Shown piece by piece: positions 3,377 to 19,409 of a DNA stretch of 21,401 nucleotides (the stretch's first letter is position 1; every line of letters begins with the position of its first letter). The translations under genes and the position numbers were made by a program. The notes beneath the pieces are model-generated. The model was not told the origin of the DNA, made no database searches, and saw nothing but the letters and a program-made list of their open reading frames with translations. The stretch is taken from IMG/VR virus record IMGVR_UViG_3300006929_000156, positions 1-21,401 of that record; one strand, 5' to 3'. The DNA is from a virus.

Positions 3377-4173
3377 TTATCAGTCCCACTTTCTGAATCA
3401 TAACTTTTTGCATCCTCAAAGAATGAACTAACTTCATTAAATCCAAAGTTATCATCTGCATCAGCAGTAGCAGGATCAGGTGTAACCTTATATCGTTGTT
3501 CTCTCTTAGGTGACTTGTCAGGTAAATCTGTATATTGGTCAACCTGTACAGTTTTAATAATTGAACTAGAAGTAACAGGCCCATATAGATAGAATTTTGT
3601 AGTAAACGATAGGGTATAGATAATAGCCCTACGAGTTTGAAAATCTGCTTGATAGTCATCCTCATAAGAAATACTATTCAGTACAATAGGAACATCTTTC
3701 TTTATTCCCATATCTGTCATATCATTAATTGTAATAGTATAATCGGGTTGGAAATAGGGTAAAATTTGTTCAACAACTTGAAGAGCATCTTCAGATTGTT
3801 TTGCCATAATATACAAAGTAAACTCTAGGTTATAAGGAACAGGCATGTACTGTGTATCTAATTGGTCATTCTTATCGCCCTTAACCTTTTTAAATTTTTG
3901 TACACGGTTTAGTTTACGAGTTGGGTCATATGTAAGATTATTAATCTCAAACCCTATGCGTGGCAAAGTAACCGCAACAGATTTTGTAAGGTCTGCATCG
4001 TCATCAAGCCGAGTTAAATACTTATCTCTCGGCCCGTAAGCAAGTGGAACTTTCATTGTTTGAATAATGTTTCCACTATTATCTTTACGAACTAATTGTA
4101 TATTGTTGAACATTGTTCCAAATGCAACAACTACTTTTCGTATTGTTTCGTGATAAAATTGTTGTCCTAGCAT
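3373..4173 (-). CDS. 15: Tail sheath stabiliser/completion protein gp15
   Basis: 266 aa against 272 aa for T4 gp15, which caps the tail tube and sheath and joins tail to neck. The alignment by eye is clear: the N-terminal YHETIRKVVVAFGTMFNNIQ (residues 7-26) corresponds to YNSSFRRYATLMGDLFSNIQ in T4, LPRIGFEI (70-77) to LPRINLHL, and the block VVEQILPYFQPDYTITIND (133-151) is nearly identical to the T4 sequence. The C-terminal 50 residues are acidic and low in conservation. Its ATG shares one base with the gp14 stop (TAATG), with GGAGG a few bases upstream. This is a structural virion protein expressed late. Confidence 0.93.
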   Translation of the reverse strand: MLGQQFYHETIRKVVVAFGTMFNNIQLVRKDNSGNIIQTMKVPLAYGPRDKYLTRLDDDADLTKSVAVTLPRIGFEINNLTYDPTRKLNRVQKFKKVKGDKNDQLDTQYMPVPYNLEFTLYIMAKQSEDALQVVEQILPYFQPDYTITINDMTDMGIKKDVPIVLNSISYEDDYQADFQTRRAIIYTLSFTTKFYLYGPVTSSSIIKTVQVDQYTDLPDKSPKREQRYKVTPDPATADADDNFGFNEVSSFFEDAKSYDSESGTDK

Positions 4174-5168
4174 TATGTGCCTCCAGCATCACCAAATGGA
4201 TTTTTTTCAGTGAAGTCTAATATAGTATCATCGGCGGCATCAAAAATCTCGTTCTGAGCAGTTTTGTCAACCGTTCCATCTCCAACTGCATACTCCTCAT
4301 GTAATAGGAATGAATGTCCGTCTTCAAGAAGGATATTCGTACCAACACTACTCGAATCATTTTCACCAATGACGTTATCGCCATCTGTTTCTTCAAGTAG
4401 AAGTCCTTGATCCCCATTACTACTTATACCGATTTCAAGTCGGATATTTTCATTTACTGCAGCAGACTGTTCAAGTGTCATCTGATAAGCCATAGCACTA
4501 ATTGAATGGTCATCTTCGATAGCATCTATCGCAGCAATATCAGTGTCAATAACTTCTGAACTGTAATCGAATAGTCTGCAATTCATTTTGTATACAGGAT
4601 TATTATCCAACTGGTGGAATGGGTCATCGTGGTCTACAAAATTAACTTGGAATACTTTACTTAATGTTGGATGATATATTAAATCCCCTTCTTGCGGCCT
4701 ATCGGAATCTGTAGGTGAACTTTCTGCAATCATATATCCACTTTCAAATGAAGACGATATATCTACAACATCGCTGTCCAACGTACCAGACTCTAATAAA
4801 ATAGAACCAGATAGGGTATCTGTACCACTCTCTATAGTAAACTGTTTTGTTAAATCTTGAAATCTATTTTTACTTACAACAAAGGTTATCTCACTAAGGT
4901 TTTGTAAACCGAATTGAGACATAAGCTCTCTTTGTCCTTGATAACCACCTTCTGCATCTTCTACATACATTTCTATTTTTGCTTGAGTAGTAAATTTGGA
5001 AAGTTGGTCTTCTCCAAAAATATCATCTTTTGCAGTAACAGTACGGTCAAGATAATAAACATCATGACCATATATTTGAATTGCCTCTGCAATTAAATCT
5101 GCATAAAGGTTCTTTTCTGTAGTGAGAGCAGCTGACCCACTTGTATGAAATGCACTATTTACAGCCAT
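4173..5168 (-). CDS. 14: Neck protein gp14
   Basis: 331 aa, longer than T4 gp14 (256 aa). With gp13 it forms the neck that seals the packaged head and accepts the tail. Matches to T4 gp14 include ADLIAEAIQIYGHDVYYLDR (residues 23-42), IFGEDQLSKFT (50-60), EGGYQGQRELMSQFG (73-87) and QEGDLIYHPTLSKVFQVNFV (159-178) followed by DDPFHQL. There are extra segments relative to T4. One of about 45 residues lies at about 110-155 and contains GSILLESG. The C-terminal part holds two related leucine/glutamate-rich strings, LLLEETDG and NILLEDG. Such LLLE-type strings are, from memory, common in marine T4-like structural proteins. The start has AGGAT 3-4 nt upstream of the ATG. Confidence 0.92.
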   Translation of the reverse strand: MAVNSAFHTSGSAALTTEKNLYADLIAEAIQIYGHDVYYLDRTVTAKDDIFGEDQLSKFTTQAKIEMYVEDAEGGYQGQRELMSQFGLQNLSEITFVVSKNRFQDLTKQFTIESGTDTLSGSILLESGTLDSDVVDISSSFESGYMIAESSPTDSDRPQEGDLIYHPTLSKVFQVNFVDHDDPFHQLDNNPVYKMNCRLFDYSSEVIDTDIAAIDAIEDDHSISAMAYQMTLEQSAAVNENIRLEIGISSNGDQGLLLEETDGDNVIGENDSSSVGTNILLEDGHSFLLHEEYAVGDGTVDKTAQNEIFDAADDTILDFTEKNPFGDAGGT

Positions 5169-5169
5169 T

Positions 5170-5988
5170 TTATCCTACCATATGCATAGGTGGTAATTCA
5201 TATGCAAGTTGAATTTGTTCTTCTAATCGTTGTTTTTCTTCTATTGCCTGTGAATAAATGGTTTCTCCGTTCATGGTAACACCACCAAGCATTGCAACAC
5301 CATTAAACTTAGAGAGGTTAGCACCCCACTGTTCTTTAATAAGAGCAGTAGCATACCGTTTCAAGAACATATCATTGTAAATATCTGCATACGATGCTGG
5401 GTCTACTTTTCTCCAACATTCAATTACAATATAATCTTGGTCTGCTGTTACATCATTCTCCCAATCCATATCAAGATACAAACGGTTTTGATGTTGATTA
5501 AATCGTAATGCTGTTTCACCTACTAAGATGTGTTGTAGGAAATCTAGGTGTTTCATTGTTAAGTCGTAATGGATTACTGATGTAGAAGAAAAATCATATA
5601 AGTCGTTTAGACGTAATTGATATCGTACATCAAACATATTAGATGTTGAACTTTCATCGAATGGAAATACTTGTACTACAGCGAGAACAGAGTCGGGAAC
5701 TGGAATCCAGTTCTTTCCTTCTTTCCAATCAGCAGTAACAGAACTATCTACAGTGTCCGTTGCAGTAACAGTTGCATCTGAACGAGCTCTTGTAACATCA
5801 GCAGTGGTAATAAGATGTTTAAGATACATCCTCTCAATGCCGTCATAATGGTATTGTGCAAAATATTGTAGAGCTTCGTCTATACGGTCATCCGCTTGGT
5901 CATCTGATACATTAATATCAATAACTCCATAACCCAAAGCACGTAGACAATAATTTTTAAATGTTGCTTTTGTTGTTGGGGTTGCCAT
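5170..5988 (-). CDS. 13: Neck protein gp13
   Basis: 272 aa (T4 gp13: 309 aa). The N-terminal pattern is typical of marine T4-like gp13: YCLRALGYGVIDINVSDDQ (residues 13-31), then DDRIDEALQYFAQYHYDG (33-50) and IERMYLKH (51-58). It forms the head-proximal neck with gp14. This is the first gene of the packaging/neck operon: a T4 late-promoter octamer lies about 20 nt upstream and AAAGGAT lies 7 nt before the ATG. Gene order 13-14-15-16 follows T4 exactly. Confidence 0.92.
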   Translation of the reverse strand: MATPTTKATFKNYCLRALGYGVIDINVSDDQADDRIDEALQYFAQYHYDGIERMYLKHLITTADVTRARSDATVTATDTVDSSVTADWKEGKNWIPVPDSVLAVVQVFPFDESSTSNMFDVRYQLRLNDLYDFSSTSVIHYDLTMKHLDFLQHILVGETALRFNQHQNRLYLDMDWENDVTADQDYIVIECWRKVDPASYADIYNDMFLKRYATALIKEQWGANLSKFNGVAMLGGVTMNGETIYSQAIEEKQRLEEQIQLAYELPPMHMVG

Positions 5989-6533: not shown

Positions 6534-7142
6534 ATGAGAATTGGTATTGTGGCAACATCCAGAAGTGGGTCAACATTTTTTCGTAGATATCTTTGTAATG
6601 AATTCGGTTTACAGGACAGCAAATCTTGGTTAAAACATAATTTATATAAAGACATAGATACTACTGACTTCGCACAAAAACCACACCTATTAAAAATACT
6701 TCCACACTATGTATTAGAGCAATCTATTTATTCGGATATGCCTTGTATATGGTTATATAGAAAAGATATAGTAACTCAATTTCTAAGTCATGTTGCTCGT
6801 CTAAGAACAAAGGTTAATCATATTACAAATGAAAATGATAGGCCCCATTTAGCATCAAATTCCTTTGTAGCAAAATATGAAGAGTTTGAAAGATTCTCTT
6901 TGAAGATGCATGAGTTTTGGTCACTATATGAAAAATATGGGATGCCTAGTGAAGAAATGTTAATTGCATATGAGGATTTTTTAAGTAATCAACAAATAGT
7001 TTGTGAGGAATTAGACCATCACTACAAACTAAAACAAAGTGAAACAGTTACTATAAAAATAACGAAATCTCTAGGCATTAACTACAAAAGTGTATTTTAT
7101 AATTATGAGGAAATAAAGACATGGTTCAAAAACTCTGCTTAG
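6534..7142 (+). CDS. Sulfotransferase-like protein 1
   Basis: 202 aa. The N-terminal ATSRSGSTFFRRYL (residues 7-20) is the 5'-phosphosulfate loop of PAPS-dependent sulfotransferases. WLYRKDIVTQFLSH (73-86) fits the 3'-phosphate binding motif RxxxxxxxxS (Arg76, Ser85), in the style of the Stf0 family. It would move sulfate from PAPS to a hydroxyl or amine, probably on a carbohydrate; the acceptor is unknown. The C-terminal tail VFYNYEEIKTWF is shared with the next gene. The last codons carry GAGGA and the ATG of that gene (22-nt overlap). There is no convincing Shine-Dalgarno before its own ATG. It is the first gene of the only plus-strand island here. A GTPase or kinase reading of the P-loop is less likely because the RSGST form with the downstream R...S is sulfotransferase-like. 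Confidence 0.75.
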   Translation: MRIGIVATSRSGSTFFRRYLCNEFGLQDSKSWLKHNLYKDIDTTDFAQKPHLLKILPHYVLEQSIYSDMPCIWLYRKDIVTQFLSHVARLRTKVNHITNENDRPHLASNSFVAKYEEFERFSLKMHEFWSLYEKYGMPSEEMLIAYEDFLSNQQIVCEELDHHYKLKQSETVTIKITKSLGINYKSVFYNYEEIKTWFKNSA

Positions 7143-7912
7143 TATGTACCCCTCGTTCTGGTTCATATTATTTACTAGACCACATTGCAAGATATTTTGA
7201 TTTGGAAAACGGCAAGGAATGGTTCGGCCGTGTAAAGAAAGTACACTATGAAGGTCTACGAACTTCCCCTGTAGATATTGACCATAGTGTAAATGAAGGT
7301 TTATTAACAAATAAAGAAATGAGTCTTCGTTTACTCTATTTAAAAAATTATCCAACTCCATTCATTATAAAATGCATGCCATTTCAAATAACCAAAACTA
7401 TAGAACGTGATAGCATGCCTTATGAAGACAGTCAAGAGACTGCTGCAAAATATATGAGAAATTTTTCCTTGATTTATATGGAAACCCGTGATAAGATACC
7501 ACAATTTTGTTTCGATGTTATATCAAAGAATCAAGATTATGTCAAGAGAAATTTTACATCATATAATACTCTGGTTAGGGAAGTTCCAAAAGCTCAATCC
7601 CTAACTGCTACTAAAGAACACTTTATCTCTTTTATGGAACGGCAAAACTATGTCAAAGATTTTCGTGAACGTAACTATAAAGGCGAACCATTAATTTATT
7701 GGGAAGATTATATAGAATTTCCTGAGCAACAGATACACAAAATAGAACGTCATTATGGACTTAAACCTTGGGATGTTTCTTTTGATTATTCAGAGAACGG
7801 GATAAAACAAAAAAAGCAAGTGCTTCCATTTCAAAAGAAAAAGGTTATGGCACATGCAGATTACGAAACGGTATTTACTAACTATGAGGAAATACAATCA
7901 TGGTTCCAGTAA
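7121..7912 (+). CDS. Sulfotransferase-like protein 2
   Basis: 263 aa, a paralogue of the gene before it. The phosphosulfate loop VCTPRSGSYYLLDHI lies at residues 8-22. The 3'-phosphate motif is less clear: YMETRDKIPQFCFDVIS (119-135) has Arg123, and the serine is shifted compared with paralogue 1, so activity is less certain. The central region (about 35-110) is an insertion relative to paralogue 1. The C-terminal tail VFTNYEEIQSWFQ closely matches that of paralogue 1. Its ATG is embedded in paralogue 1's Trp codon, with GAGGA 9 nt upstream. The same arrangement, with the same 9-nt spacing, starts the next gene. A PAPS source may be provided by the APS-kinase-like gene at 8707-9147 on the other strand. 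Confidence 0.7.
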   Translation: MVQKLCLVCTPRSGSYYLLDHIARYFDLENGKEWFGRVKKVHYEGLRTSPVDIDHSVNEGLLTNKEMSLRLLYLKNYPTPFIIKCMPFQITKTIERDSMPYEDSQETAAKYMRNFSLIYMETRDKIPQFCFDVISKNQDYVKRNFTSYNTLVREVPKAQSLTATKEHFISFMERQNYVKDFRERNYKGEPLIYWEDYIEFPEQQIHKIERHYGLKPWDVSFDYSENGIKQKKQVLPFQKKKVMAHADYETVFTNYEEIQSWFQ

Positions 7913-8523
7913 TAGATATGATAAATGGTTACTGGTTAAAAGGTAGCCCTATGTCTAAAAGAGAACAGAGTGAAGAATTTATAAACGACCTTGCAGACCT
8001 ATTGATTGAAGTACATGCTATCAAACCAGAAAACTTAATTCCTCATCAATATGGGTCAGCACTTTCAATGATAGCGGTAGTCGATAAATTAGAAAAAACA
8101 ATGGATTGGTGTGGAATTAAACCAGCCCACTTTTGTAGACAATCAGTAAATGAGTTTAGGGAAATACAACACAATTTTACTAACACTACCTTTCTACATG
8201 GTGACCTATGGTACAAAAATGTGATAGTAGACAAAGGAATTCTTCAAGGATTAATTGATTGGGACAAGGCTCAATTCGGTGACCCTCATTGGGAATTTAA
8301 AATGATTCGTAGATGGATAGGATGGGATGGTTTAGAACGTCTTATATTTAAATACAATGCTAGTACAGGGGCAAATCTAAAGACTGATTATATAAGGGTA
8401 TTAGATAAGATTGCCCTATGTCACTCGTATAATCTTCGTGTTCGTAAACCCAATAGGGATAAACCTGTTTCAGTTATACAGGGTTATATCCAGCATTGGC
8501 CCGAATCTTGGTGGCAGAGATAG
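7900..8523 (+). CDS. APH/choline-kinase-type phosphotransferase, C-lobe only
   Basis: 207 aa. FLHGDLWYKN (residues 98-107) is the Brenner/catalytic loop HGDxxxxN, and LIDWDKAQFGDPHWEF (118-133) carries the DFG-equivalent Asp that binds Mg-ATP. This places it in the aminoglycoside phosphotransferase/choline kinase superfamily. The protein begins at about the hinge (PVIDMINGYWL), so the N-lobe with the ATP-binding lysine and glycine-rich strand is missing, about 80-90 residues against a typical member. It may be an N-terminally truncated relic, a partner of another protein, or a shorter phage lineage. The ATG with GAGGA 9 nt upstream sits inside the sulfotransferase 2 tail. Its 3' end overlaps the convergent nucleotidyltransferase gene by 50 nt. 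Confidence 0.75.
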   Translation: MVPVIDMINGYWLKGSPMSKREQSEEFINDLADLLIEVHAIKPENLIPHQYGSALSMIAVVDKLEKTMDWCGIKPAHFCRQSVNEFREIQHNFTNTTFLHGDLWYKNVIVDKGILQGLIDWDKAQFGDPHWEFKMIRRWIGWDGLERLIFKYNASTGANLKTDYIRVLDKIALCHSYNLRVRKPNRDKPVSVIQGYIQHWPESWWQR

Positions 8524-9149: not shown

Positions 9150-9860
9150 TTAAAATTTACATTCAACAAAATTCCTATAGTCTTTCCATTCATGAGGCTT
9201 ATTCATTCTGTGCGTAAAATGCACGAATTTAATATCAGGATGAAATTCACCACCCAAATAAATATAATCATTACCAGTTAACTCTCTATATTTATTAACC
9301 ATCTGTATGTTCCATTTCGACATACTCTTGCCATAATTAATATCTTCATCAACTACCCAACGAGTAAACCATTCATTGGGTAACAGTACCAACTCCAACC
9401 TTTCATTTACACTATCTTCTACAAAATGTTGTTCACCATTAACAGGGCCTGATGTTGTACCATTTTTTATATAAAAGTTCTGCCACACCTTAATATCGGA
9501 CATAAACTTATCGTAAATATATTTACAATCTTGAGGATAATATTTAAAGAACCCTCCATTTATTTTATATCCTTTTCGATGGTCACGCCACCAGCCTGGC
9601 ATTGCTGCAAACTGACCTCGTTTAATTGGAAAATCAAATACTTCATTATACTCGTTTGTAAGTAAAATGTCAATGTCCATTACACAAATAGGCACATTAA
9701 CATCTAATTGCATACCCCACATTTTATTCCATTGAAGTTTTACTAAAGGATTATATGGCTCTCGTATCCAGATAAACTTGTGGTCTGAAAGTTTTCGTTC
9801 CAGATAATGCTCATATTCTATACCATATTTTTCACCTATTCTTACACAAACAATATACAT
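9150..9860 (-). CDS. Glycosyltransferase-like protein, GT-A fold with DxD
   Basis: About 236 aa. Near residues 60-68 CVMDIDILL has the DxD motif (Asp62, Asp64) that holds the metal and nucleotide sugar. It is followed by a WWRD and KINGGFF segment, like bacterial and phage GT8-type enzymes, and the C-terminal part has FVHFTHRMNKP, a likely late His ligand. The frame extends to a TTG two codons earlier, but ATG at 9860 is preferred: it overlaps the stop of the radical SAM gene as TAATG and has AAAGG 7 nt upstream. It resembles the second glycosyltransferase at 13597-14313 in plan (IVCVRxG/IVCIKWG start, DxD, GWW), so the two are probably distant paralogues. Donor and acceptor sugars are unknown. 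Confidence 0.75.
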   Translation of the reverse strand: MYIVCVRIGEKYGIEYEHYLERKLSDHKFIWIREPYNPLVKLQWNKMWGMQLDVNVPICVMDIDILLTNEYNEVFDFPIKRGQFAAMPGWWRDHRKGYKINGGFFKYYPQDCKYIYDKFMSDIKVWQNFYIKNGTTSGPVNGEQHFVEDSVNERLELVLLPNEWFTRWVVDEDINYGKSMSKWNIQMVNKYRELTGNDYIYLGGEFHPDIKFVHFTHRMNKPHEWKDYRNFVECKF

Positions 9861-10915
9861 TACCAAACCTTTTCTCTATAATTTGCACTAGCATCAAAAC
9901 TACCAGATTTATGTTTTACTGTACAAGTAGATTTACAGGGTTTCAAACACATGGATTTTTCTGTCCAAGACATTTGTAGAAGTTCATAAAAATTATCATT
10001 CAAAATTTCATTCAAACTTTTTTCTAACAGGTTATTATCTTTATTTGCAAAATACTTACCATACCAACTATTGTCCTTTACCAACTCTTTTTTGTTTGGC
10101 AAATAACAACAGGGCCATACCCTAAGAAGGTGGTCAACGTAAATTGAATTTTGTCTCTGGAATTTACAAGATATTTCATATAGTTCATCTGATTCTATAT
10201 ACTCTGCTCGTTCCCTTTCTTTTTCATTCCACTCTTTATCTATGTCTTGTGGTAATAAAAGATACTCTTTATTTTTGTACATAAAGGGTTCTGACCATCT
10301 ACCAAGTCTATTGGAAAGAATTAGTATAAAATTATGAAAACCATATTCTTTTGCAATTTCTTTTGCTTCTTCTATTTGATGTTGGTTGTGTTTAAATACA
10401 ATCATTCTCCATTGAGCCCGTCCACCAGCATCTATGAAGGCCTTTGCATTTTCCATTATCTTTTCATAATTAGCATTAATTCTATACAAACTCAATTCAT
10501 CTCGTAAACCATCAAGACAAAATGCTACCTTACTCACCTTATCTCTTTTGTATATCTTACCTAGTTCTCTCCACCAATCAGTACTTCGCAATGAACCATT
10601 TGTACTTACCATAACATGCGAACCTTTGTCAAGTACAAACTCACATATTTTTGCAAAATCTTTACTTGCAACATTCTCTGAAACATGGCCATAAAATCTA
10701 ACAGTGCCAACATTACCTATGTTATTAAATGCAATCTTAAATTCTTCTAGGGTAGTATCCATATCATTTAATGAATTGGTAGGATTACCACTGCCATCTT
10801 TCTTCCACTGTAAAACACCATCCTTTATTTGGTTTCTACCACATTGAGGACACATAAGATTACATATATTGTTTAACTCCCAATTAATGCTTATAGGTTC
10901 AGATAAATTAAACAC
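9860..10915 (-). CDS. Radical SAM enzyme with SPASM-like C-terminal domain
   Basis: 351 aa. The canonical cluster motif is C18-x3-C22-x2-C25 (ICNLMCPQCGRN), which binds the 4Fe-4S cluster that cleaves S-adenosylmethionine. Next come MVSTNGSL (about 101-108) and KVAFCLDGL, as in radical SAM barrels. The C-terminal third has more cysteines, Cys250, Cys269-Cys270 (RVWPCCYLPN), Cys323, Cys327 and Cys331, in SPASM style for auxiliary clusters. SPASM enzymes modify peptides, sugars or cofactors; the substrate here is unknown and no precursor peptide is evident nearby. The start is GTG at 10915, sharing its G with the upstream TAG stop, with GAGAGGAA just before. It is coupled downstream to a glycosyltransferase by TAATG, which would fit a sugar or surface substrate (inference). 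Confidence 0.88.
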   Translation of the reverse strand: MFNLSEPISINWELNNICNLMCPQCGRNQIKDGVLQWKKDGSGNPTNSLNDMDTTLEEFKIAFNNIGNVGTVRFYGHVSENVASKDFAKICEFVLDKGSHVMVSTNGSLRSTDWWRELGKIYKRDKVSKVAFCLDGLRDELSLYRINANYEKIMENAKAFIDAGGRAQWRMIVFKHNQHQIEEAKEIAKEYGFHNFILILSNRLGRWSEPFMYKNKEYLLLPQDIDKEWNEKERERAEYIESDELYEISCKFQRQNSIYVDHLLRVWPCCYLPNKKELVKDNSWYGKYFANKDNNLLEKSLNEILNDNFYELLQMSWTEKSMCLKPCKSTCTVKHKSGSFDASANYREKVW

Positions 10916-12219
10916 TACAACAATTCCTCTCGCCTCTCTTTAAATGGGGTTGTTCCCGTTAACCAACAAAAATTTGCTGATGATAAACATTCTTTTAAAT
11001 TGGAATATGATTTACACAGTTCTTCTAATGTATAATAAGCATGTGACATATGATAACCAAAAATATTACTAGCTCTAAAAAATACATCCTTACCCTTAAC
11101 TGTTTCATATATTCTATCGTAATCAGGCTCTATTAAGTTCATTACCCAATAATCAATATCACAATCTTCATACATTTGTTCTTGAAATTTTCGTAATTGT
11201 TCTATTTTCTTTTTTTGATTTTCGCTTCTACTGCGCCCCTCTGAACATTCCATAAACCTAGATGGCCCATCTAGAATAATATTAGTTTTAGAATTTTGAG
11301 ATAAATATCTTTGTTCTTCTAAATTCATATTCATTTCAATAATTTTTTTCTTTAAGGAGATATTTTCTTGTGTGTAATCATAAAAGATAACTTTCCCATC
11401 AAAATTATATCTATCGCAATATTCCTCTGTAAGATATCCAGCTGTTGGCGCCATAAAAACATCATATTTTCTGTCGAGTATAGGAGATAGGGGTTCTGAA
11501 TTAAACACATAAAAAGTTGAACTAATTCTAGTCATAAATCTACTAAAGTAGAAATCATTCTTGTCTACATGTTCCCAAACATTATCTAAGTCTTTCCAAA
11601 CAGCATTATATTCTCTATAATATGAAAATGATTTTTTAGACCTTTCAGTTGCACTAAAATTATCTATCTGTGGCAATCCTTCTGGCGTCAAGTGTAAAGG
11701 TGTATAATCATCATGAAAATTAAATTTTGCTCTATCATAGTTTCGCCAAAGATGTTTACTAAAAATATCTGGTGAACCAATATTATTCCACATGTCAATA
11801 TTTAAATCTATATGCTGATGATGTAGATATGCGGGCTGATGTGGTTTTGCCATAATATGTGCTTTACAAAATAAATCACTTTTAGAAAAATGTTTAAATT
11901 CATCTATTGAAGTCATAGATGGGGTCATGTCAAAAACCATACCAACAGAAACAATCATAGCATGTGAATGATGACATTTTTTTAAAACATCTCTTAGTTG
12001 ACTTTGATAACAAAATTGTATATCATGTCCTGATCCAGAACCACTACTGCCGCCAGAAACCATAAGAGTTGTAGTCTGAGTTTGTTTTTCTATATTTAAA
12101 TCCCAAACAAGTTCATCAGGATAAACAACTAAAAATAACAAATGAGCTTCAGATTTTTTAACAGGTAAATTTTTAATTCCAGTTTTCCAACAATTTACAA
12201 ATTCATCAAAATTATTCAT
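10915..12219 (-). CDS. Uncharacterised protein, possible Rossmann-like transferase
   Basis: 434 aa from ATG at 12219. The frame is open to 12246, but the ATG at 12219 has GGAAG about 6 nt upstream and gives an 8-nt rather than 35-nt overlap with the preceding gene. I do not recognise a named family. Visible features are a Gly/Ser string SGGSSGSGSG at about residues 55-64, a segment with SHAMIVSVGMVFDMTPS and PAYLHHQHIDLNIDMWNN (about 84-145), a strand-like YDVFMAPTAGYLTEEYC then KVIFYDYTQENISLKK (about 255-295), and FFRASNIFGYH near the C-terminus. The last two resemble nucleotide- or SAM-binding Rossmann strands (an acidic residue ending a strand), but this is weak. Neighbours on both sides are redox or sugar-modifying enzymes with overlapping ends, so it probably works with them. 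Confidence 0.7.
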   Translation of the reverse strand: MNNFDEFVNCWKTGIKNLPVKKSEAHLLFLVVYPDELVWDLNIEKQTQTTTLMVSGGSSGSGSGHDIQFCYQSQLRDVLKKCHHSHAMIVSVGMVFDMTPSMTSIDEFKHFSKSDLFCKAHIMAKPHQPAYLHHQHIDLNIDMWNNIGSPDIFSKHLWRNYDRAKFNFHDDYTPLHLTPEGLPQIDNFSATERSKKSFSYYREYNAVWKDLDNVWEHVDKNDFYFSRFMTRISSTFYVFNSEPLSPILDRKYDVFMAPTAGYLTEEYCDRYNFDGKVIFYDYTQENISLKKKIIEMNMNLEEQRYLSQNSKTNIILDGPSRFMECSEGRSRSENQKKKIEQLRKFQEQMYEDCDIDYWVMNLIEPDYDRIYETVKGKDVFFRASNIFGYHMSHAYYTLEELCKSYSNLKECLSSANFCWLTGTTPFKERREELL

Positions 12220-12904
12220 CAATTTCTTCCAACACATCTCTACCAAATCGTTCCACTAATGCTTTCTTCATAAGCTCTTTTCGTTCTTTATTATTTCCAC
12301 CATGTACAATAAAATGGAAACGATTTTCTTCTGAAGCATTGTATGCCTCATGTTCAACACCATTGTCAAACCAAAATCCTGTACAATTCTTAAACGGCAA
12401 TTCTTCTTTTGTATCACACCTTCTTAAATAACAATTCTCTGGTTGATAAAATGCAAGATTGATTGCAGATGATATATTCCTTCTAGCTCCTCTTGCATCT
12501 CTTGGGGGATTAGAATCATGATGTTGTTCTATTCTTCCTTCGGGTTTTAACAACATAAACCGTAATCTTCTATAATGATTATGTGGAAAATCTTCTAACC
12601 ACCTCTTAGTTTCTGGAGCATAATCTGCAATCTCTGTCCAACCCCATTTCACATTTTCCTCTTTAAAACCGTGACCGTCTGGATTTTTAGTATGTTGCCA
12701 ACCAGATTTTGTACTACGAACACTTTTATGTACAAAACTATGAATTGATGCTGAACACCAACCGTCACCATCTCCATAACGATGCTCTACAAAAAATCCT
12801 TCCTCAAAAACTGTCTGAGCTTCTTTAATACATTCTTCTGGTATTTCTAATGGCAATTGAAGATACCAAACATCATTCTCCCTACACCATTCTATAATAT
12901 CCAT
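12212..12904 (-). CDS. 2OG-Fe(II) oxygenase / aspartyl beta-hydroxylase-like protein
   Basis: 230 aa. A double-stranded beta helix pattern is visible. RRLRFMLLKPEGRIEQHHDSN (residues 112-132) supplies the HxD-like iron ligands His128 and Asp130. CTGFWFDNGVEHEAYNAS (174-191) holds the distal ligand His185, and the 2-oxoglutarate-binding Arg195 follows in ENRFHFIVHG. This layout resembles the aspartyl/asparaginyl beta-hydroxylase group of 2-oxoglutarate dioxygenases, which hydroxylate side chains or small molecules. The start has AGGAG 5 nt upstream of the ATG. It overlaps the next gene by 8 nt. Its substrate is unknown; it lies between a methyltransferase-like gene and the 434-aa unknown gene. 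Confidence 0.75.
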   Translation of the reverse strand: MDIIEWCRENDVWYLQLPLEIPEECIKEAQTVFEEGFFVEHRYGDGDGWCSASIHSFVHKSVRSTKSGWQHTKNPDGHGFKEENVKWGWTEIADYAPETKRWLEDFPHNHYRRLRFMLLKPEGRIEQHHDSNPPRDARGARRNISSAINLAFYQPENCYLRRCDTKEELPFKNCTGFWFDNGVEHEAYNASEENRFHFIVHGGNNKERKELMKKALVERFGRDVLEEIDE

Positions 12905-13603
12905 TTAGTCTCCTATGACCATAAACCTTTTCATATCATCGTGTAATCTTTTAGAACCACAATACAATATATTCTCTAGTCCCGATTGTTCTGCCAAAAC
13001 CTCAGCAGACCGTACACAGTTAATATGGTCATCATATCTGTTACTGTTAGTAGATTGTAAAACATATGTTGGTTTTGATAATCCATAACCATTTAAGTCA
13101 ACAAATCGTTTCATATGAAACATATGTTCACAAGAAGTATTTATTATTGTATCGAACTTTTTTCCATTCTTGGATTGCTTTTCATAAATCGTTTTAAACA
13201 TTACATCTAGAATATCACATTTGTATTTTTTTCTGTCTTTATGTCGTTTGTTAAACTTGTAGCTTATAGTTTTTACATCTTCATCTATCTCAAAGTTATG
13301 AATAAGAAATGTATCATATTCATCTATCAATAATTGTACAAGGAAGTTACCGTACCATCCACCCAACAAAGCCACACAGTCTGGTTTAATATTCAGATTG
13401 TTTAATTCTTCTATAATCCACAACTTACTTTGAATTTGTGATACAGTTGTAGCGTTCATTACCCTTCGATAACAATAATTTAAATCACGTTCTACATCAA
13501 CAAACGTCTGCTTCCATTCTCTTGCTGCACGTTCTTGGTCTGACTTTACATGAGTAAAAAACAAAGACGTTGCAACGAATGATTCCTGTGCTATATCTAC
13601 CAT
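12905..13603 (-). CDS. Putative class I SAM-dependent methyltransferase
   Basis: 232 aa. CVALLGGWYGNFLVQLL (residues 76-92) looks like motif I of Rossmann methyltransferases in the variant GGWYGN. NFEIDED (103-109) ends with the acidic residues expected to contact the SAM ribose, KCDILDV is a likely motif II, and FDTIINTSCEHM (motif IV region) follows. The methyl acceptor is unknown. The ATG overlaps the end of the upstream glycosyltransferase by 7 nt, inside its Trp codon. The call rests on motif pattern only and could be wrong in detail. Confidence 0.65.
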   Translation of the reverse strand: MVDIAQESFVATSLFFTHVKSDQERAAREWKQTFVDVERDLNYCYRRVMNATTVSQIQSKLWIIEELNNLNIKPDCVALLGGWYGNFLVQLLIDEYDTFLIHNFEIDEDVKTISYKFNKRHKDRKKYKCDILDVMFKTIYEKQSKNGKKFDTIINTSCEHMFHMKRFVDLNGYGLSKPTYVLQSTNSNRYDDHINCVRSAEVLAEQSGLENILYCGSKRLHDDMKRFMVIGD

Positions 13604-14313
13604 AATTTTTTAATCTCTTCTGTATTCACACCTTCAACATGAGTACTATTATTAAACAAGCATATCTTGTGGTCTTTTCTCAAAGTCTCTAAGTCCATAT
13701 CATCTGGAAAAATATTTCCTTTATACCAAGAATAAATATCTCCTTGTGGAAATCCTCTGAAAAAGCTGTCTTCTTCGTTCCATATATTATACCAACGGTG
13801 ATTGAAATAATTATCTAGACTAGGATATGTAAAGAAAATTACCTCTGCGTTTTTCCTTACATCTTTAACAACAGGCTTTAGCTGTTCTCTATCCCAACGT
13901 ATAACGGAAGAATTTAACGGCGTAGATTTTAATCTGGAATAATTTAATTTTACTTTGTGTGGGTCATTCCACCAACCTCTTACAATATAAGGTTTATCCA
14001 TAGGTAGGTCAAAAAAGTATTTTAGGTCTTGATGAATAATAACATCAAGGTCTAGAAAAAGAAATTGCTCACCATCTACCAATTCACTAAACATATAGAT
14101 TTTACGCCAAGCCCAAAAGAATCCACGTTCTTCATCATAATGGTCATCCAAATATATGGGCAATTTTACATGGTAATCTTTGGTAGGATTATCTGTAAGA
14201 CAATAAAAATCAAAAGGAACTGAGCAGTTGTTCTCACACTGTTCTTTTAATTTTTCAACGTAGGAATCATCATACTTATTTCCCCACTTGATACATACTA
14301 TAGTATTTTGCAT
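13597..14313 (-). CDS. Glycosyltransferase, GT-A fold with DLD motif
   Basis: 238 aa. The N-terminus TIVCIKWGNKYDDSYVEKL with FYCLTDNP (residues 37-44) and the metal/donor motif FLFLDLDVII (84-93, DLD at 88-90) are typical of phage and marine bacterial GT-A glycosyltransferases of the GT8-like group. GWWNDP after the DxD and the C-terminal FNNSTHVEG add support. It would transfer a sugar from a nucleotide donor to a glycan or glycosylated protein. The gene overlaps the epimerase gene by 16 nt and the methyltransferase gene by 7 nt. There is no strong Shine-Dalgarno, so coupled translation from the epimerase gene is likely. Confidence 0.82.
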   Translation of the reverse strand: MQNTIVCIKWGNKYDDSYVEKLKEQCENNCSVPFDFYCLTDNPTKDYHVKLPIYLDDHYDEERGFFWAWRKIYMFSELVDGEQFLFLDLDVIIHQDLKYFFDLPMDKPYIVRGWWNDPHKVKLNYSRLKSTPLNSSVIRWDREQLKPVVKDVRKNAEVIFFTYPSLDNYFNHRWYNIWNEEDSFFRGFPQGDIYSWYKGNIFPDDMDLETLRKDHKICLFNNSTHVEGVNTEEIKKLW

Positions 14314-15044
14314 TTAGGTTTCCATCCAACTTTCAATAGAGGGCCAATATCAGCACATGTTGTTTCTCTTTCTGATGGTCTATCTTCATATCGTATCTCA
14401 CCATCAAATCCCATAGATTTAGCAACTTCTAATACCGATACAGATTCACCACTACCTATATCTATTACGTTTCCCATAAAGGTATCATAGTTTTCTATAA
14501 TTGTATGAATTGCAGAACACAAATCATCTATATGTGTAAAGTCTCTATAATGGCCTCCGTTAATATACTCTACCTCTTCGTTAAGTAACTTTTGATATAA
14601 CATATCTGGTCGGCCTGGATAAATCGTATGAGGGCGAAACCCCACAGAATTATTTGGACGTTCTTCTTCGTTTGTAAGTTTAGTTTGTGCGTATGGATTA
14701 GTAACTTCTTTTGCGTTAGAAGAAGAAGCAAATAATAATGGAATGTTACAATTTTCTACATATTCAAATATTCTTCGTGTTCCAAAAACATTTACTTTTT
14801 TATATTTTTGTGGAATTTCCAAAGACCTACGAACACCAGCAAGTGCCGCTAAATGTATTACCATATCAGGATTATTTGATTTTCGCCGAAGTGGGAAATC
14901 ACATATGTCTCCTACATATGGAAAAACAGACATTCCCTTCATTTCTAAATAAGGTTTGAGATTAGAACCAATATAACCATCACTTCCTGTCATCAATATC
15001 TTCATCTTGTCGCTCATAAATAAATTCATTCTCCCTATTTTCAT
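14298..15044 (-). CDS. NAD-dependent epimerase/dehydratase (extended SDR)
   Basis: 248 aa as the longest frame. The Rossmann loop MTGSDGYIGSN (residues 18-28) binds NAD(P). VIHLAALAGVRRS (62-74) is the conserved second block. A serine string (107-109) with Tyr118 and Lys122 (NPYAQTK) forms the catalytic triad, and FRPHTIYPGR and YRDFTHIDDLCSAI follow as in UDP-sugar epimerases and dehydratases. At 248 aa it is shorter than the usual 310-340 aa, mainly at the C-terminus, which ends at GWKPKCKIL. Four in-frame ATGs compete (15044, 15029, 15017, 15005); the homology begins at 15005 (MKILMTG), and GGGAG is 13 nt before 15017, so the true start is probably 15017 or 15005. It likely makes a sugar nucleotide for the adjacent glycosyltransferase. 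Confidence 0.85.
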   Translation of the reverse strand: MKIGRMNLFMSDKMKILMTGSDGYIGSNLKPYLEMKGMSVFPYVGDICDFPLRRKSNNPDMVIHLAALAGVRRSLEIPQKYKKVNVFGTRRIFEYVENCNIPLLFASSSNAKEVTNPYAQTKLTNEEERPNNSVGFRPHTIYPGRPDMLYQKLLNEEVEYINGGHYRDFTHIDDLCSAIHTIIENYDTFMGNVIDIGSGESVSVLEVAKSMGFDGEIRYEDRPSERETTCADIGPLLKVGWKPKCKIL

Positions 15045-15076: not shown

Positions 15077-15814
15077 CTATAAATAAATTTCTTCATACTT
15101 ATCATATAAAGCCTCCGCCATATGTTTATGTCCTTCTTCATTGGGGTGTCTATCTATAGTACTTATTCTTAATTTTATCTCGCCTGGATCAATCTTATTT
15201 AAGATAGTTGCCATTGTTTTACCACCAATTTCTTCATACATAGGCCATCCCCAAAAATGTTTTTCTAATATAGAATCAAATAAAGAATGTTCTAAATAAA
15301 TTTTAACTATATTACCATTAACTTTATCAAATTGTTGGCTTGGATAAAACGCCGTTCCTTGTATAAACGGAACATTATTATATAGACAATAATTTTGAAA
15401 TGCATTTTGCCATCTTAAAGTTTTTAGTATATTATATTTTCCAGAGGCAAGTTTATATTTAAATATAGTATCCATTACTTCTAATCTTCGTTTTCTAGTT
15501 TCTTCTTTGACATAAACACCAAACTGATGTTGATTGTCTGGATTTATTTGAATAGTTTTTTCCTCATTAAAATCCCATCTATCTGCACTTGACCACAAAC
15601 ATATTGCTAAATCAACTTTATTGTTTTTTCTACTTAATGCATCTACCATAGAATTGTATATAAATTCATTTCCTGCTCCTCCTCGGCCGACATTTAAAAG
15701 ATTCCAACCCAATTTCCTTGCAAGCATATTAGGCCACACTTGTCCATTAACTCCTACTGGCATTTGAGTACCAGCTGTCCAACTGTCACCAGAAGTAACT
15801 AATATTTTTTTCAT
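15077..15814 (-). CDS. SGNH/GDSL-type hydrolase, copy 4 of 4
   Basis: 245 aa. It has block I TSGDSWTAG (nucleophile Ser11), a glycine/asparagine block GRGGAGNEFI (about residues 43-52), and the C-terminal D-x-H-P-N-x-x-G-H (Asp221, His223, His229) that carries the catalytic Asp/His. It is the only one of the four copies with the classical GDS instead of GCS. SGNH enzymes remove or transfer acyl groups on glycans, lipids or peptidoglycan. It has no signal peptide, so an intracellular or virion-linked target is likely. It is most similar to copy 3 (SGAGNEFIYN, GWP). The ATG overlaps the copy 3 stop as ATGA, with AGGAG 9 nt upstream. It is the last member of the array; 32 nt separate it from the epimerase frame. 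Confidence 0.85.
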   Translation of the reverse strand: MKKILVTSGDSWTAGTQMPVGVNGQVWPNMLARKLGWNLLNVGRGGAGNEFIYNSMVDALSRKNNKVDLAICLWSSADRWDFNEEKTIQINPDNQHQFGVYVKEETRKRRLEVMDTIFKYKLASGKYNILKTLRWQNAFQNYCLYNNVPFIQGTAFYPSQQFDKVNGNIVKIYLEHSLFDSILEKHFWGWPMYEEIGGKTMATILNKIDPGEIKLRISTIDRHPNEEGHKHMAEALYDKYEEIYL

Positions 15815-16473
15815 AAATAAATGCTCCTATAATTATCATAAAAAATCTCCGCCATGAGCTCATGTCCTTTATTGTTAGGGTGAGTATCTTCAAAACTAAT
15901 TCTTAACTCCAATTTAGAAGAATCCTTTTTGTTTAATTTATCGTTCATAGTTTCACCACCCAACTGTTTAAATATAGGCCACCCTATATAATTTTTATCA
16001 TTAATGCTATCAAATTGAGCACAAGAAAATAATGCTTCAATATCCCACTCTAAAGGATTTTCAATACCTCTACCCATAAAACCTTGCATTTGTAAAAAAG
16101 GTATTTTATTCAATTGACAGTGATTTTGAAATGCATGAAACAACCTAACACCTTTAAATATATTTTCTCTTTTGCCATCTTTAAATTTCGGCGTCAATTG
16201 AAAACTAGAATTATAGAAATCCCACCTATCAAAACCAGACCACAAACAAATTGCTAAATGAACATTTTTTGTTGTACATAAAGTATCAATCATTCTATTG
16301 TAAATGAATTCATTACCAGCACCGCTTCTAGAAACATTAATACACTCCATATTAAGTTTATCTGCTAATACTTGCGGCCAACGGGGAAAATTGCAATCCA
16401 CATTCGGTGAGATTGATGATGTTGTATAGTGTTCTGTCCAACTACAACCAGAAACAACTAATATTTTTTTCAT
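15811..16473 (-). CDS. SGNH hydrolase-like protein, copy 3 of 4
   Basis: 220 aa, the shortest copy. It has block I VSGCSWTEHY (Ser10 retained, the preceding residue Cys instead of Asp), SRSGAGNEFIYN as the Gly/Asn block, AICLWSGFDRWDF, and the C-terminal DTHPNNKGHELMAE. All catalytic positions of the fold are kept. It starts ATGAAAAAAATATTAGT, the same first 17 nt as copy 4, and ends NYRSIYL. Its Arg-Ser codons AGGAGC provide the ribosome site for copy 4. The ATG overlaps the copy 2 stop as ATGA. Confidence 0.85.
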   Translation of the reverse strand: MKKILVVSGCSWTEHYTTSSISPNVDCNFPRWPQVLADKLNMECINVSRSGAGNEFIYNRMIDTLCTTKNVHLAICLWSGFDRWDFYNSSFQLTPKFKDGKRENIFKGVRLFHAFQNHCQLNKIPFLQMQGFMGRGIENPLEWDIEALFSCAQFDSINDKNYIGWPIFKQLGGETMNDKLNKKDSSKLELRISFEDTHPNNKGHELMAEIFYDNYRSIYL

Positions 16474-17282
16474 GAATAAACCTTTTTATAATTATCATAT
16501 ATTAGTTCACTTATAAGTTCATGGCCTACTGCATTTGGATGCGAATCTTTTGAACCCTCCATACGATATTTTTCTCTTTCGGGGTCTAATTTGTCCAAAT
16601 GATGGTCTACTGCAAATCCACCTAATTGTGGCATTATAGGCCATCCTATAAATTTTTTACTTTCTATTAAATCAATATATGGAGATTTTAACATGAATCT
16701 AATACATTCTTTCATAATGATATTAAAATAATCATAAGGTTCATTGTGTTCAAATAGTGGGCCCAATGTAGGCTTTCCCACTGGAAAGCACCCTTGTATC
16801 ATAAAATACGGTATATCCTTTAATATATTTTGTGTAATCCAGAATAATCTAAAAGCAGCTAAAGTTGATGAAGCAATACTATTATATTTTAATAATTTAT
16901 TTTTTGCTGCTGGATCGAGTTTATATGTTTCGTAATTAGTAAGTCTGTGTGGATGTAAATGTTGCCAAACAATTTTTCGCCACACTCCCGCTGGAATATA
17001 AGTATCAATTTCTTGAAGATCAAATAGGCCTAATTCTTGAAAATCCATTCTTTGAAATTCTGACCACATAATAACTATGAAATCAAATTTTTCTTCAACA
17101 ATGCTATCGAATAGTTGACCAGAGATATGAGTATTTCCTGCTCCATTAGCACCCAAATTTATACAGTCCATATCCAATTTTTCAGCAAGAAGTTGCGGCC
17201 AGACAGGAAATCCATGTTTATGCGTCCAGTACAAAGATGTATAACTACAACCGATTGCAAGTAACCTTTTACGTTTCATCAT
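16470..17282 (-). CDS. SGNH hydrolase-like protein, copy 2 of 4
   Basis: 270 aa. It has block I AIGCSYTSLYWT, the Gly/Asn block LGANGAGNTHI, VIMWSEFQRMDF, FIGWPIMPQLGG, and the C-terminal DSHPNAVGHELISELIYDN. It pairs closely with copy 1: WSEFQRMDF, HLHPHR, YFMIQG/HLMIQG and FIGWPI are shared. Copies 3 and 4 form the other pair, which suggests a duplication followed by two further ones. Two ATGs start the frame (17282 and 17279), both overlapping the end of copy 1. No signal peptide is visible. Confidence 0.84.
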   Translation of the reverse strand: MMKRKRLLAIGCSYTSLYWTHKHGFPVWPQLLAEKLDMDCINLGANGAGNTHISGQLFDSIVEEKFDFIVIMWSEFQRMDFQELGLFDLQEIDTYIPAGVWRKIVWQHLHPHRLTNYETYKLDPAAKNKLLKYNSIASSTLAAFRLFWITQNILKDIPYFMIQGCFPVGKPTLGPLFEHNEPYDYFNIIMKECIRFMLKSPYIDLIESKKFIGWPIMPQLGGFAVDHHLDKLDPEREKYRMEGSKDSHPNAVGHELISELIYDNYKKVYS

Positions 17283-18066
17283 CTACCCCATAAATGCTCC
17301 TATAATTATCATAAATTAACTCACTTATAACTTCATGTCCAGTTGTATTTGGATGGGAATCTAAAAGATGATGTATACGATATCTTTTTCTATCGTAATC
17401 TACATCATCAAAATAACTATCAATTGACATGCCGCCTAATTGTTTATATATGGGCCATCCGATAAATTTTTTACTATTGATTAATTCAATATATGGAGAT
17501 TTTAGTAAAGATGATATAGCATCTTCATTCACGCTTTTCCAAAAATCATCAGGATATGGATCATCTTTAAAATTGGGTGTACAAAGAGCCTTCGGGCCCT
17601 GTATCATTAGGTGAGGAATATCTTTCAGTATATTTTGCGCCGTCCAAAATAATCTAACATTATGTAAAACAGAAGCAACGATATCGTTATATTTTAATAA
17701 ATTTCTTTTCCAAGGATTGTCTATAGGAAATATTTCACTACCTTCGCCAAAAGTCTTGTTTCTATGAGGATGTAAATGTTTCCATTTAATTTGATTAAAT
17801 TTATTCAAATATTCAAAATCCATTCTTTGAAATTCTGACCACATAATAACTACTAAGTCATAATTATCTTCAATAATAGTATCACACATTTTACCAAAAA
17901 TATAATTATTACCCCTACCAGCAGAACCTAAATTCAAATAATCCCAATCTAATTTTTTTGCGAGAAGTTCAGGCCAGACAGGAAATCCATGTGCTTTTGT
18001 CCAAGATGAAGTTGTATAACTACAACCTATGGCGAGTAATTTTTTACGTTTAGAAAACAGCGACAT
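17269..18066 (-). CDS. SGNH hydrolase-like protein, copy 1 of 4
   Basis: 265 aa from ATG at 18066. The frame is open to 18111, but ATG at 18066 has GAGAGG 7 nt upstream and leaves a 17-nt overlap with the carbamoyltransferase end. It has block I AIGCSYTTSSWT, the Gly/Asn block LGSAGRGNNYI, VIMWSEFQRMDF, FIGWPIYKQLGG, and the C-terminal DSHPNTTGHEVISELIYDN. The tail NYRSIY is the same as in copy 3 but is followed by an extra GVDDET. As a result the embedded AGGAG is about 14 nt from the start of copy 2 instead of 9 nt as at the copy 3-4 junction. Confidence 0.84.
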   Translation of the reverse strand: MSLFSKRKKLLAIGCSYTTSSWTKAHGFPVWPELLAKKLDWDYLNLGSAGRGNNYIFGKMCDTIIEDNYDLVVIMWSEFQRMDFEYLNKFNQIKWKHLHPHRNKTFGEGSEIFPIDNPWKRNLLKYNDIVASVLHNVRLFWTAQNILKDIPHLMIQGPKALCTPNFKDDPYPDDFWKSVNEDAISSLLKSPYIELINSKKFIGWPIYKQLGGMSIDSYFDDVDYDRKRYRIHHLLDSHPNTTGHEVISELIYDNYRSIYGVDDET

Positions 18067-18517
18067 TATACAGCCTCTCAAATTCACATGCATCATTCCA
18101 ACCATTAACAATTGGTTTTCCTTTTATATTTAGGGATGTATTGAGAAGCATAGGGCAACCTGTCCTATCATACCATTCTTCCAGAATAGGACGTATAATA
18201 GATTTACAATCTTTCTTGACTACTTGTACTCTTGCAGTACCATCAACGTGTGTGACAGAACTATAATCATGTTTTGCCTTTGCGACAAACTGCATGTATT
18301 CGTTCATTGGGCCTTCAAAGTATTCGTCTTTATATTCTTCCAGAATTGCTGGAGCAAAAGGACGAAACTTCTGTCTACGTTTTATGGTGTTTACTGTGTC
18401 TTTGATATCATAACGAGGGTCACCAAGTAGAGAACGATTACCTAATGCTCTAGGGCCGAACTCTGCTTTACCATGTGCAACTCCACATATCTTTCTTTCT
18501 AAAAGTTCCTGTACCAC
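18050..18517 (-). CDS. Carbamoyltransferase, C-terminal part (split gene)
   Basis: 155-aa frame from GTG. GKAEFGPRALGNRS (residues 16-29) is the signature of the YrdC-like/C-terminal half of NodU/TobZ/CmcH carbamoyltransferases, and RTGCPMLLNTSLNIKGKP (about 117-135) is the next conserved block. The half has no proper ribosome site of its own: the AAGG touches the GTG. The frame continues upstream of the GTG as NPKK before meeting a stop, and it joins the N-terminal half if one base is dropped near 18528-18531. So this is not an independent gene but the end of one carbamoyltransferase read in the +1 frame. Its end overlaps SGNH copy 1 and supplies that gene's GAGAGG ribosome site. Confidence 0.88.
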   Translation of the reverse strand: MVQELLERKICGVAHGKAEFGPRALGNRSLLGDPRYDIKDTVNTIKRRQKFRPFAPAILEEYKDEYFEGPMNEYMQFVAKAKHDYSSVTHVDGTARVQVVKKDCKSIIRPILEEWYDRTGCPMLLNTSLNIKGKPIVNGWNDACEFERLYNVAVF

Positions 18518-18521
18518 CTTT

Positions 18522-18531
18522 TTAGGATTTT
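18522..18531 (-). other. Frame change inside the carbamoyltransferase gene (AAAA TCC TAA)
   Basis: On the minus strand the N-terminal frame reads GTA AAA TCC TAA. Removing one A from the run at 18528-18531, or a +1 slip of the ribosome at TCC-TAA, reads into the C-terminal frame without loss of conserved sequence. TCC followed by a stop is also the form of the eukaryotic antizyme +1 site (TCC TGA). A real mutation, a sequencing or assembly indel, and programmed frameshifting all fit what is seen here. Confidence 0.75.
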
Positions 18532-19409
18532 ACACTTACTTGAATATCATGTCCTAGATACGGGTCAACCCATTTCAATTTCTTTTTCTGTACTAATGCA
18601 GCTGCACCCAAGGAACTTCCAGCATCGCCAGGCGATGGCATAATCCAGATATTCTTTCCCTGTATCTTTGAGTTTGCAACACAATTCAACGCACAACCAC
18701 CCATAATAATTAGATTTTCTTTTGGACACATATCCACCAGTTTAAGAAACTCTCTCTCGTACAGGTCTTGTATGGACGCTGCGAGGTCTTCTGAGCGTGC
18801 TTTTAGGAATATGTCTCCAACACCCTTATGGTTGTTTTTATCAAGTAAAAAAGTTAAATCATACTTGGGTTCACCAAATGCAGCCATCCCCATTGTAATA
18901 TATTCTTCTTCATTGGGTTTCAAACCAATTCGGTGAGTAATTGCAGAGTATAGAAGTCCAAGAGAATATGGATACTTCCAAGATTTTAGTTTTTTAAGAT
19001 GATGTATCTTTTGACCAAGATATAAATTTTTACAACTACCATCCCAAATAGATATGGTATCCCATTCACCGATTGCATCTATAACTAAAATATTACAATC
19101 ATTGAATGGAGCGGTATAATAACCAGCAGCTGCATGAGACTGATGGTGACCAAAACTAACATCATACCTACTTCTAGGCTTCTGCCATGTTTGACCAGCG
19201 TATATTCGTCTTAGATTTTTGAGGAAAGGTTTTTCATAATAAGCAACAGTGTCTTCTTTAGATACTTTATTCCATTGTTTATGGTGTAAGTATCTGTCAC
19301 CCTTGGTTTTACTATATCTTTCCGAATGTGAGGCGTAGACAATTCTTCTACCCTCCAATATAGTAATCCCAGCATCATGATATCCTTCGGAAATTCCAAC
19401 TATTCGCAT
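18522..19409 (-). CDS. Carbamoyltransferase NodU/TobZ family, N-terminal part (split gene)
   Basis: 295 aa. The ASKHA-type kinase-like domain starts with MRIVGISEGYHDAGITIL; FGHHQSHAAAGYY (residues 87-98) has the conserved metal-binding histidines, followed by ILVIDAIGEWDT, EEYITMGMAAFGEP and MGGCALNCVANSKI. Known members first make carbamoyl-adenylate from carbamoyl phosphate and ATP, then pass the carbamoyl group to a sugar or antibiotic hydroxyl. The frame ends at GHDIQVSVKS and stop, while the C-terminal half follows in another frame. Dropping one base gives GHDIQVSVNPKKVVQELL, a smooth join with a combined length of about 450 aa, which fits the phage forms I recall. Next to the SGNH array and epimerase, the acceptor is probably a glycan (inference). 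Confidence 0.88.
   Translation of the reverse strand: MRIVGISEGYHDAGITILEGRRIVYASHSERYSKTKGDRYLHHKQWNKVSKEDTVAYYEKPFLKNLRRIYAGQTWQKPRSRYDVSFGHHQSHAAAGYYTAPFNDCNILVIDAIGEWDTISIWDGSCKNLYLGQKIHHLKKLKSWKYPYSLGLLYSAITHRIGLKPNEEEYITMGMAAFGEPKYDLTFLLDKNNHKGVGDIFLKARSEDLAASIQDLYEREFLKLVDMCPKENLIIMGGCALNCVANSKIQGKNIWIMPSPGDAGSSLGAAALVQKKKLKWVDPYLGHDIQVSVKS

Follow-up and report, generated by a model that had tools for sequence, protein, structure and literature searches.

A four-gene array of SGNH-fold proteins without the block III asparagine in a marine phage operon beside the neck genes

Canonical SGNH hydrolases carry, among their conserved blocks, a block III GxND with the oxyanion-hole Asn and a block V DxxH. 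Sugar-modifying genes occur in large sets in the phages that infect abundant marine bacteria. Variants of the SGNH pattern have been described: AlgX and AlgJ, periplasmic and circularly permuted, have a block V DXH and a Tyr in block III but no block III Asn, and departures from this Asn are also found in SASA, PatB1 and the plant XOAT1 (PMC9487903). In pelagimyophages, a host recognition cluster adjoining gp14 is rich in GT8/LPS-type genes and is thought to alter the host O-chain (PMC7029224); hydrolases, lipases and carbamoyltransferases go unmentioned in the main text of that paper.

We analysed a 21,401-nt stretch of DNA (the window), a complete 21.4-kb IMG/VR record from a marine phage of T4-like type. 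Between 2894 and 5988 it carries genes for the terminase small subunit, a tail sheath stabilizer, head closure and a head-tail adaptor, and the best deposited matches of the tail sheath stabilizer are Methylophilales phage Melnitz and Pelagibacter phage HTVC008M (61-62%). The neck genes are present and no VrlC gene was identified within the fragment. Adjoining the terminase small subunit gene, at 1791-2876, is an asparagine-synthetase-like protein with an SGGIDST motif and no Pfam match; in related phages, similar genes stand beside an SGNH gene or end the SGNH operon (L002 4793-5986; L011 9357-11669).

The array consists of consecutive ORFs in the order S4-S3-S2-S1, with neighbours overlapping by 4-14 nt (Table 1). 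An earlier note on this DNA had reported four SGNH paralogues at 15077-18066, of 220-270 aa and falling into two pairs, three with a GCS motif and the last with GDS. All of this was confirmed: the exact ORFs were found, the motifs could be read from them, and AlphaFold2 models of S3 and S1 match solved SGNH/GDSL hydrolases. S3 and S4 are 51% identical in amino acids (E 2e-97) and S1 and S2 41% (E 2e-56), with 27-35% identity between the pairs (E 1e-24 or better). These alignments indicate that S1-S4 are homologous far beyond chance and that the two-pair grouping holds.

Table 1. Features of the SGNH operon and its borders, in window coordinates
Feature	Position	Strand	Remark
Carbamoyltransferase N-terminal part (Carbam_trans_N)	18522..19409	(-)	upstream of SGNH run
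Carbamoyltransferase C-terminal part (Carbam_trans_C)	18050..18517	(-)	frame differs from N part
S4, SGNH-fold, A type, GCSYT, 265 aa	17269..18066	(-)	first of run
S3, SGNH-fold, A type, GCSYT, 270 aa	16470..17282	(-)	sister of S4
S2, SGNH-fold, B type with A-type segment, GCSWT, 220 aa	15811..16473	(-)	
S2 recombination tract, gene nt ~41-140	16334..16433	(-)	near-identical to A-type gene of L002
S1, SGNH-fold, B type, GDSWT, 245 aa	15077..15814	(-)	last of run
NAD-dependent epimerase/dehydratase	14298..15044	(-)	insert relative to related operons read
Putative glycosyltransferase, weak GT8	13597..14313	(-)	conserved operon gene
Putative methyltransferase-like	12905..13603	(-)	assigned by visual inspection, Pfam matches not significant; conserved operon gene
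Aspartyl/asparaginyl beta-hydroxylase-like	12212..12904	(-)	conserved operon gene
Orphan 443-aa protein	10915..12246	(-)	conserved operon gene
Radical SAM protein, SPASM-like C-terminus	9860..10915	(-)	conserved operon gene
Unassigned 238-aa protein	9150..9866	(-)	conserved operon gene
Neck genes	4173..5988	(-)	border of island; Hc2 / gp14-like head closure 4173-5168, head-tail adaptor 5170-5988

The AlphaFold2 models of S3 and S1 were built on 67 aligned relatives (pLDDT 91.6 and 86.4, respectively) and compared with the PDB by Foldseek. The top matches of both were nearly all SGNH hydrolases, comprising the Bacteroides lipase 3bzw, 4rsh, TesA and acetylxylan esterases, with a TM of 0.72 on target length for TesA (1u8u), and S1 and S3 were therefore assigned to the alpha/beta/alpha SGNH fold. 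At the sequence level, all four copies score under the gathering cut-off of the Pfam GDSL models PF13472 and PF00657, PDB sequence searches gave no significant match, and matches to 'PPR' profiles were weak.

Motif conservation was counted in 123 non-redundant family members. The nucleophile Ser of block I is present in 120/120 and the block II Gly in 117/122, including all four window copies; the Ser lies at residue 11-16 and the DxH close to the C-terminus, in canonical block order. The block III Asn is conserved nowhere in the 123 members and is missing from all four window copies; the position reads W-[ST]-x-x-x-R instead of GxND (W in 123/123, R in 122/123), with E, Q, T, G, S and others following the W. 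Block V is DxH followed by PN, not DxxH (D in 114/121, H in 119/121), and a GWP motif is conserved in addition. These counts contradict the earlier note, according to which every other catalytic position is retained, and its view that none of the copies looks dead stands only for the Ser and His, which are kept, but not for the oxyanion-hole Asn, which is gone. With this Asn missing, the usual SGNH esterase activity cannot be taken for granted. Cys precedes the nucleophile in 92 members and Asp in 28; GCS is therefore the usual state of the family and not the departure from GDS it had been taken for. As a mark of a new catalytic class, the Cys-for-Asp exchange was ruled out, since Cys is the norm and the two residues have switched several times.

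Compared with known SGNH/GDSL hydrolases such as TesA (1u8u/1ivn) and Axe2, the family shares the fold, the Ser after strand 1, the block II Gly and a C-terminal His followed by PN..GH, but it differs in the lost block III Asn, the shortened block V, the usual Cys before Ser, the invariant W-[ST]-x3-R, the GWP motif and, for the window copies, the low Pfam scores. The block V DXH and the missing Asn are common to AlgX/AlgJ, whereas the phage proteins have no Tyr conserved after strand 3 and keep the canonical order, and for this last reason they fit none of AlgX/AlgJ, SASA, PatB1 and XOAT1. The family is a variant on the SGNH fold that falls outside the canonical hydrolases.

Two tblastn queries were run against 50,697 deposited phage records, and each matched only gp86 of Pelagibacter phage Mosig EXVC030M (QOI69050.1, 'hypothetical protein'; 32.5% to S2, E 2e-31, GCSYT). 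This gene belongs to the same family and lies near DegT, MoaA-like and carbamoyltransferase genes, but, unlike the window genes, it is single-copy, falls in another clade and has a different operon order. IMG/VR holds at least 187 loci of the family, for which alignment queries were needed, single-sequence scans with S3 and S2 yielding 0 and 7 loci, respectively. Four further contigs from the genome collection were bacterial MAG loci, in all likelihood phage DNA: L089 closely resembles the viral L004, and the others are surrounded by phage-type genes. As far as searched, the SGNH-fold family is confined to marine phages. Some relatives match the Pfam model DUF6071 weakly, and a literature search on that family turned up no paper. 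L156, a single-cell virus contig (Marine virus AG-345-D19), encodes at 3894-5640 a further pair of GCS proteins of this kind, more distantly related, which directly precede a carbamoyltransferase and a radical-SAM-like protein.

Arrays of two to three adjacent copies recur in about 14 further contig populations of marine phages (L011, L013, L014, L023, L035, L055/L057, L074, L088, L093, L107, L113/L114, L116, L118 and L149), four being the highest number seen, and the arrays of L107, L113/L114, L116 and L118 contain one gap of 80-140 nt. Such arrays are not unusual, contrary to what was first supposed; the one in the window is a larger example of an arrangement that recurs. The closest counterparts, with 2-3 copies against four in the window, are L010, L011, L013, L014, L023, L055, L093 and L116, all of which have the same operon except L023 and L055. 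In arrays that combine the two motifs, the last gene is the one with GDS in 9/10 cases, the window counted, a pattern that is a description and not a test because most such arrays share one ancestor.

Operon gene orders were compared by local similarity labels. L011, L013, L014, L093 and L116 share the order carbamoyltransferase, SGNH-A, SGNH-B, glycosyltransferase-like, methyltransferase-like, Asp/Asn hydroxylase, orphan 443-aa protein, radical SAM (where present), unassigned protein and neck genes (where the contig extends). L010 is likewise organized with B displaced, no carbamoyltransferase was seen beside A in L093, and in L116 the leading SGNH gene scores as an A-like outlier. The window keeps the shared order plus the epimerase, and parts of the operon are found in L094 and L096. 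Carbamoyltransferase is the immediate upstream neighbour of A genes in 12/26 cases; of the 86 members outside the A/B group, 31 are followed by a DegT aminotransferase and 10 by a carbamoyltransferase, and 23 have an unassigned neighbour labelled PAPxx on the other side. The orphan protein had no match in Pfam or deposited phages. L094 and L096 also carry a pair of sulfotransferase-like genes, as does the window, where the two lie with a phosphotransferase (APH) in a plus-strand insert at 6534-8523 within an otherwise minus-strand region.

The carbamoyltransferase is one continuous gene in L010, L011, L013, L014 and L116, while in the window its frame is broken at 18510-18535, between the N and C domains. 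This break may be a mutation, a programmed shift or an assembly error, indistinguishable here, and because of it the operon copy in the window may not be fully functional. The SGNH operon sits in a variable island beside the neck genes that may be of the kind called the host recognition cluster in pelagimyophages, which likewise adjoins neck genes and is rich in sugar-modifying genes (PMC7029224). Together, one conserved operon is defined along with an SGNH subfamily with an altered active site, uncharacterised as far as we found; this Asn-less subfamily, the operon and the mosaic S2 described below are, in our view, what is new.

The reading we prefer, for which we judge the chances to be about even, is that these proteins are serine acyl enzymes with a rebuilt oxyanion hole that act in the cytosol on a sugar or sugar-lipid substrate and alter the host surface. 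With Ser and DxH kept, S1-S4 would be active, and the oxyanion hole would be rebuilt without the block III Asn, probably by means of the invariant Trp-[Ser/Thr]-x3-Arg. With strand 1 beginning as early as residue 4-6, there is no space for a signal peptide, and they would be expected to work in the cytosol. Judging from the neighbouring genes, an acyl group would be transferred to or removed from an intermediate, either a sugar or a sugar-lipid, to be carbamoylated and otherwise decorated by the same operon, and the product would most likely change the host surface glycan in infection. This function is testable in the cultured phage Mosig EXVC030M, a single-copy carrier.

The chief rival to this glycan reading is an operon with another kind of product, a modified peptide, metabolite or DNA base, which the SGNH enzymes would tailor or release. 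The radical SAM/SPASM and Asp/Asn-hydroxylase genes would also fit peptide or small-molecule tailoring, and the methyltransferase-like gene in the same operon and the DegT aminotransferase beside other family members point the same way. We nevertheless hold it to be rather unlikely: no gene for a precursor peptide, an ATP-grasp enzyme, adenylation or base modification could be recognised in the window, the glycosyltransferase-like, epimerase and carbamoyltransferase genes indicate sugars, and LPS-type genes are published for such an island (PMC7029224). Loss of ester chemistry, leaving SGNH-fold binding or scaffold proteins, would agree with the weak Pfam scores and the disappearance of the block III Asn from all members, but the retention of Ser in 120/120 and His in 119/121 across very deep divergence, together with the activity of SGNH variants without this Asn in other families (PMC9487903), makes it improbable. 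That the proteins are virion-associated esterases, like SGNH-bearing tail fibres that de-acylate host polysaccharide, is very improbable despite the location in a putative island of host recognition (PMC7029224) and a weak PHROG tail fibre match (phrog_5240, E 0.001-0.03) of three of the four window copies and 14/68 relatives, since each is a stand-alone single domain without a fibre or attachment domain and the genes are linked to biosynthetic and not fibre genes.

The origin of the four copies was addressed with trees covering 31 relatives of A and B type. S3 and S4 come out as sisters (100/97) adjoining the A gene of L011 (98/94) and are a true tandem duplicate pair, whereas the B clade (100/99) takes in S1 and S2 together with the GDS genes of L010, L011, L012, L013 and L014. 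Monophyly of the four window genes was rejected (AU p 1.3e-59), and A and B copies occur together in one contig in L010, L011, L013, L014 and L093, so the A/B split predates the window phage. The four genes accordingly represent two ancient types, A (S4, S3) and B (S2, S1). The earlier note had proposed a tandem quadruplication of one ancestral gene within this phage, with the copies diverging for different acyl substrates, a scenario that could draw on the adjacent, same-strand, overlapping genes, on the S3/S4 sisterhood and on the fact that S1 and S2 as sisters were not rejected (p 0.17), but which is highly unlikely given the rejected clade of four, the side-by-side A and B types of other phages and the foreign segment in S2. 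A single local quadruplication is thus refuted and tandem origin survives for S3/S4 only, S1 and S2 being of the older B type.

S2 is a recombinant, of B type with an A-type segment. Over nt 6-141 it shares 89% identity with the L002 gene of A type, with 95/100 matching positions at nt 41-140 and ~58% identity just beyond. Since its first 43 nt resemble S1 (35/43), the breakpoint lies no more than about 10 nt from the Cys codon, which may itself have arrived with the segment, and the ~100-nt tract is downstream of the GCS motif. It is the strongest A/B tract found, setting aside an artefact of physical overlap in L014. In the N-terminal part S2 groups with L002/L003 (98/96), a grouping rejected in the rest of the gene (p 1e-5), while N-terminal trees alone do not exclude S2 on the B side (p 0.53); the mosaic claim is therefore based on the DNA identity and the C-part rejection. 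Copy number was altered by duplication (S3/S4) and segments were swapped between types (S2), so that the copies trace to one recent duplication, one old split and one recombinant. We consider it unlikely that the whole amounts to a phage-specific SGNH subfamily with a Trp-[Ser/Thr]-x3-Arg oxyanion hole, in which paired, non-redundant A and B acyl enzymes act with the carbamoyltransferase and a locus kept variable by duplication and segment exchange yields phage-specific surface glycans.

A near-identical tract of ~95 nt is also present at the gene 5' ends of L053/L058 and L073, members otherwise diverged, which suggests that segment exchange may be common in the family. Finally, the 3' ends of S4 (17290-17315) and S2 (15817-15842) share an identical 26-nt stretch that contains AGGAG, likely the ribosome-binding site of the next gene.
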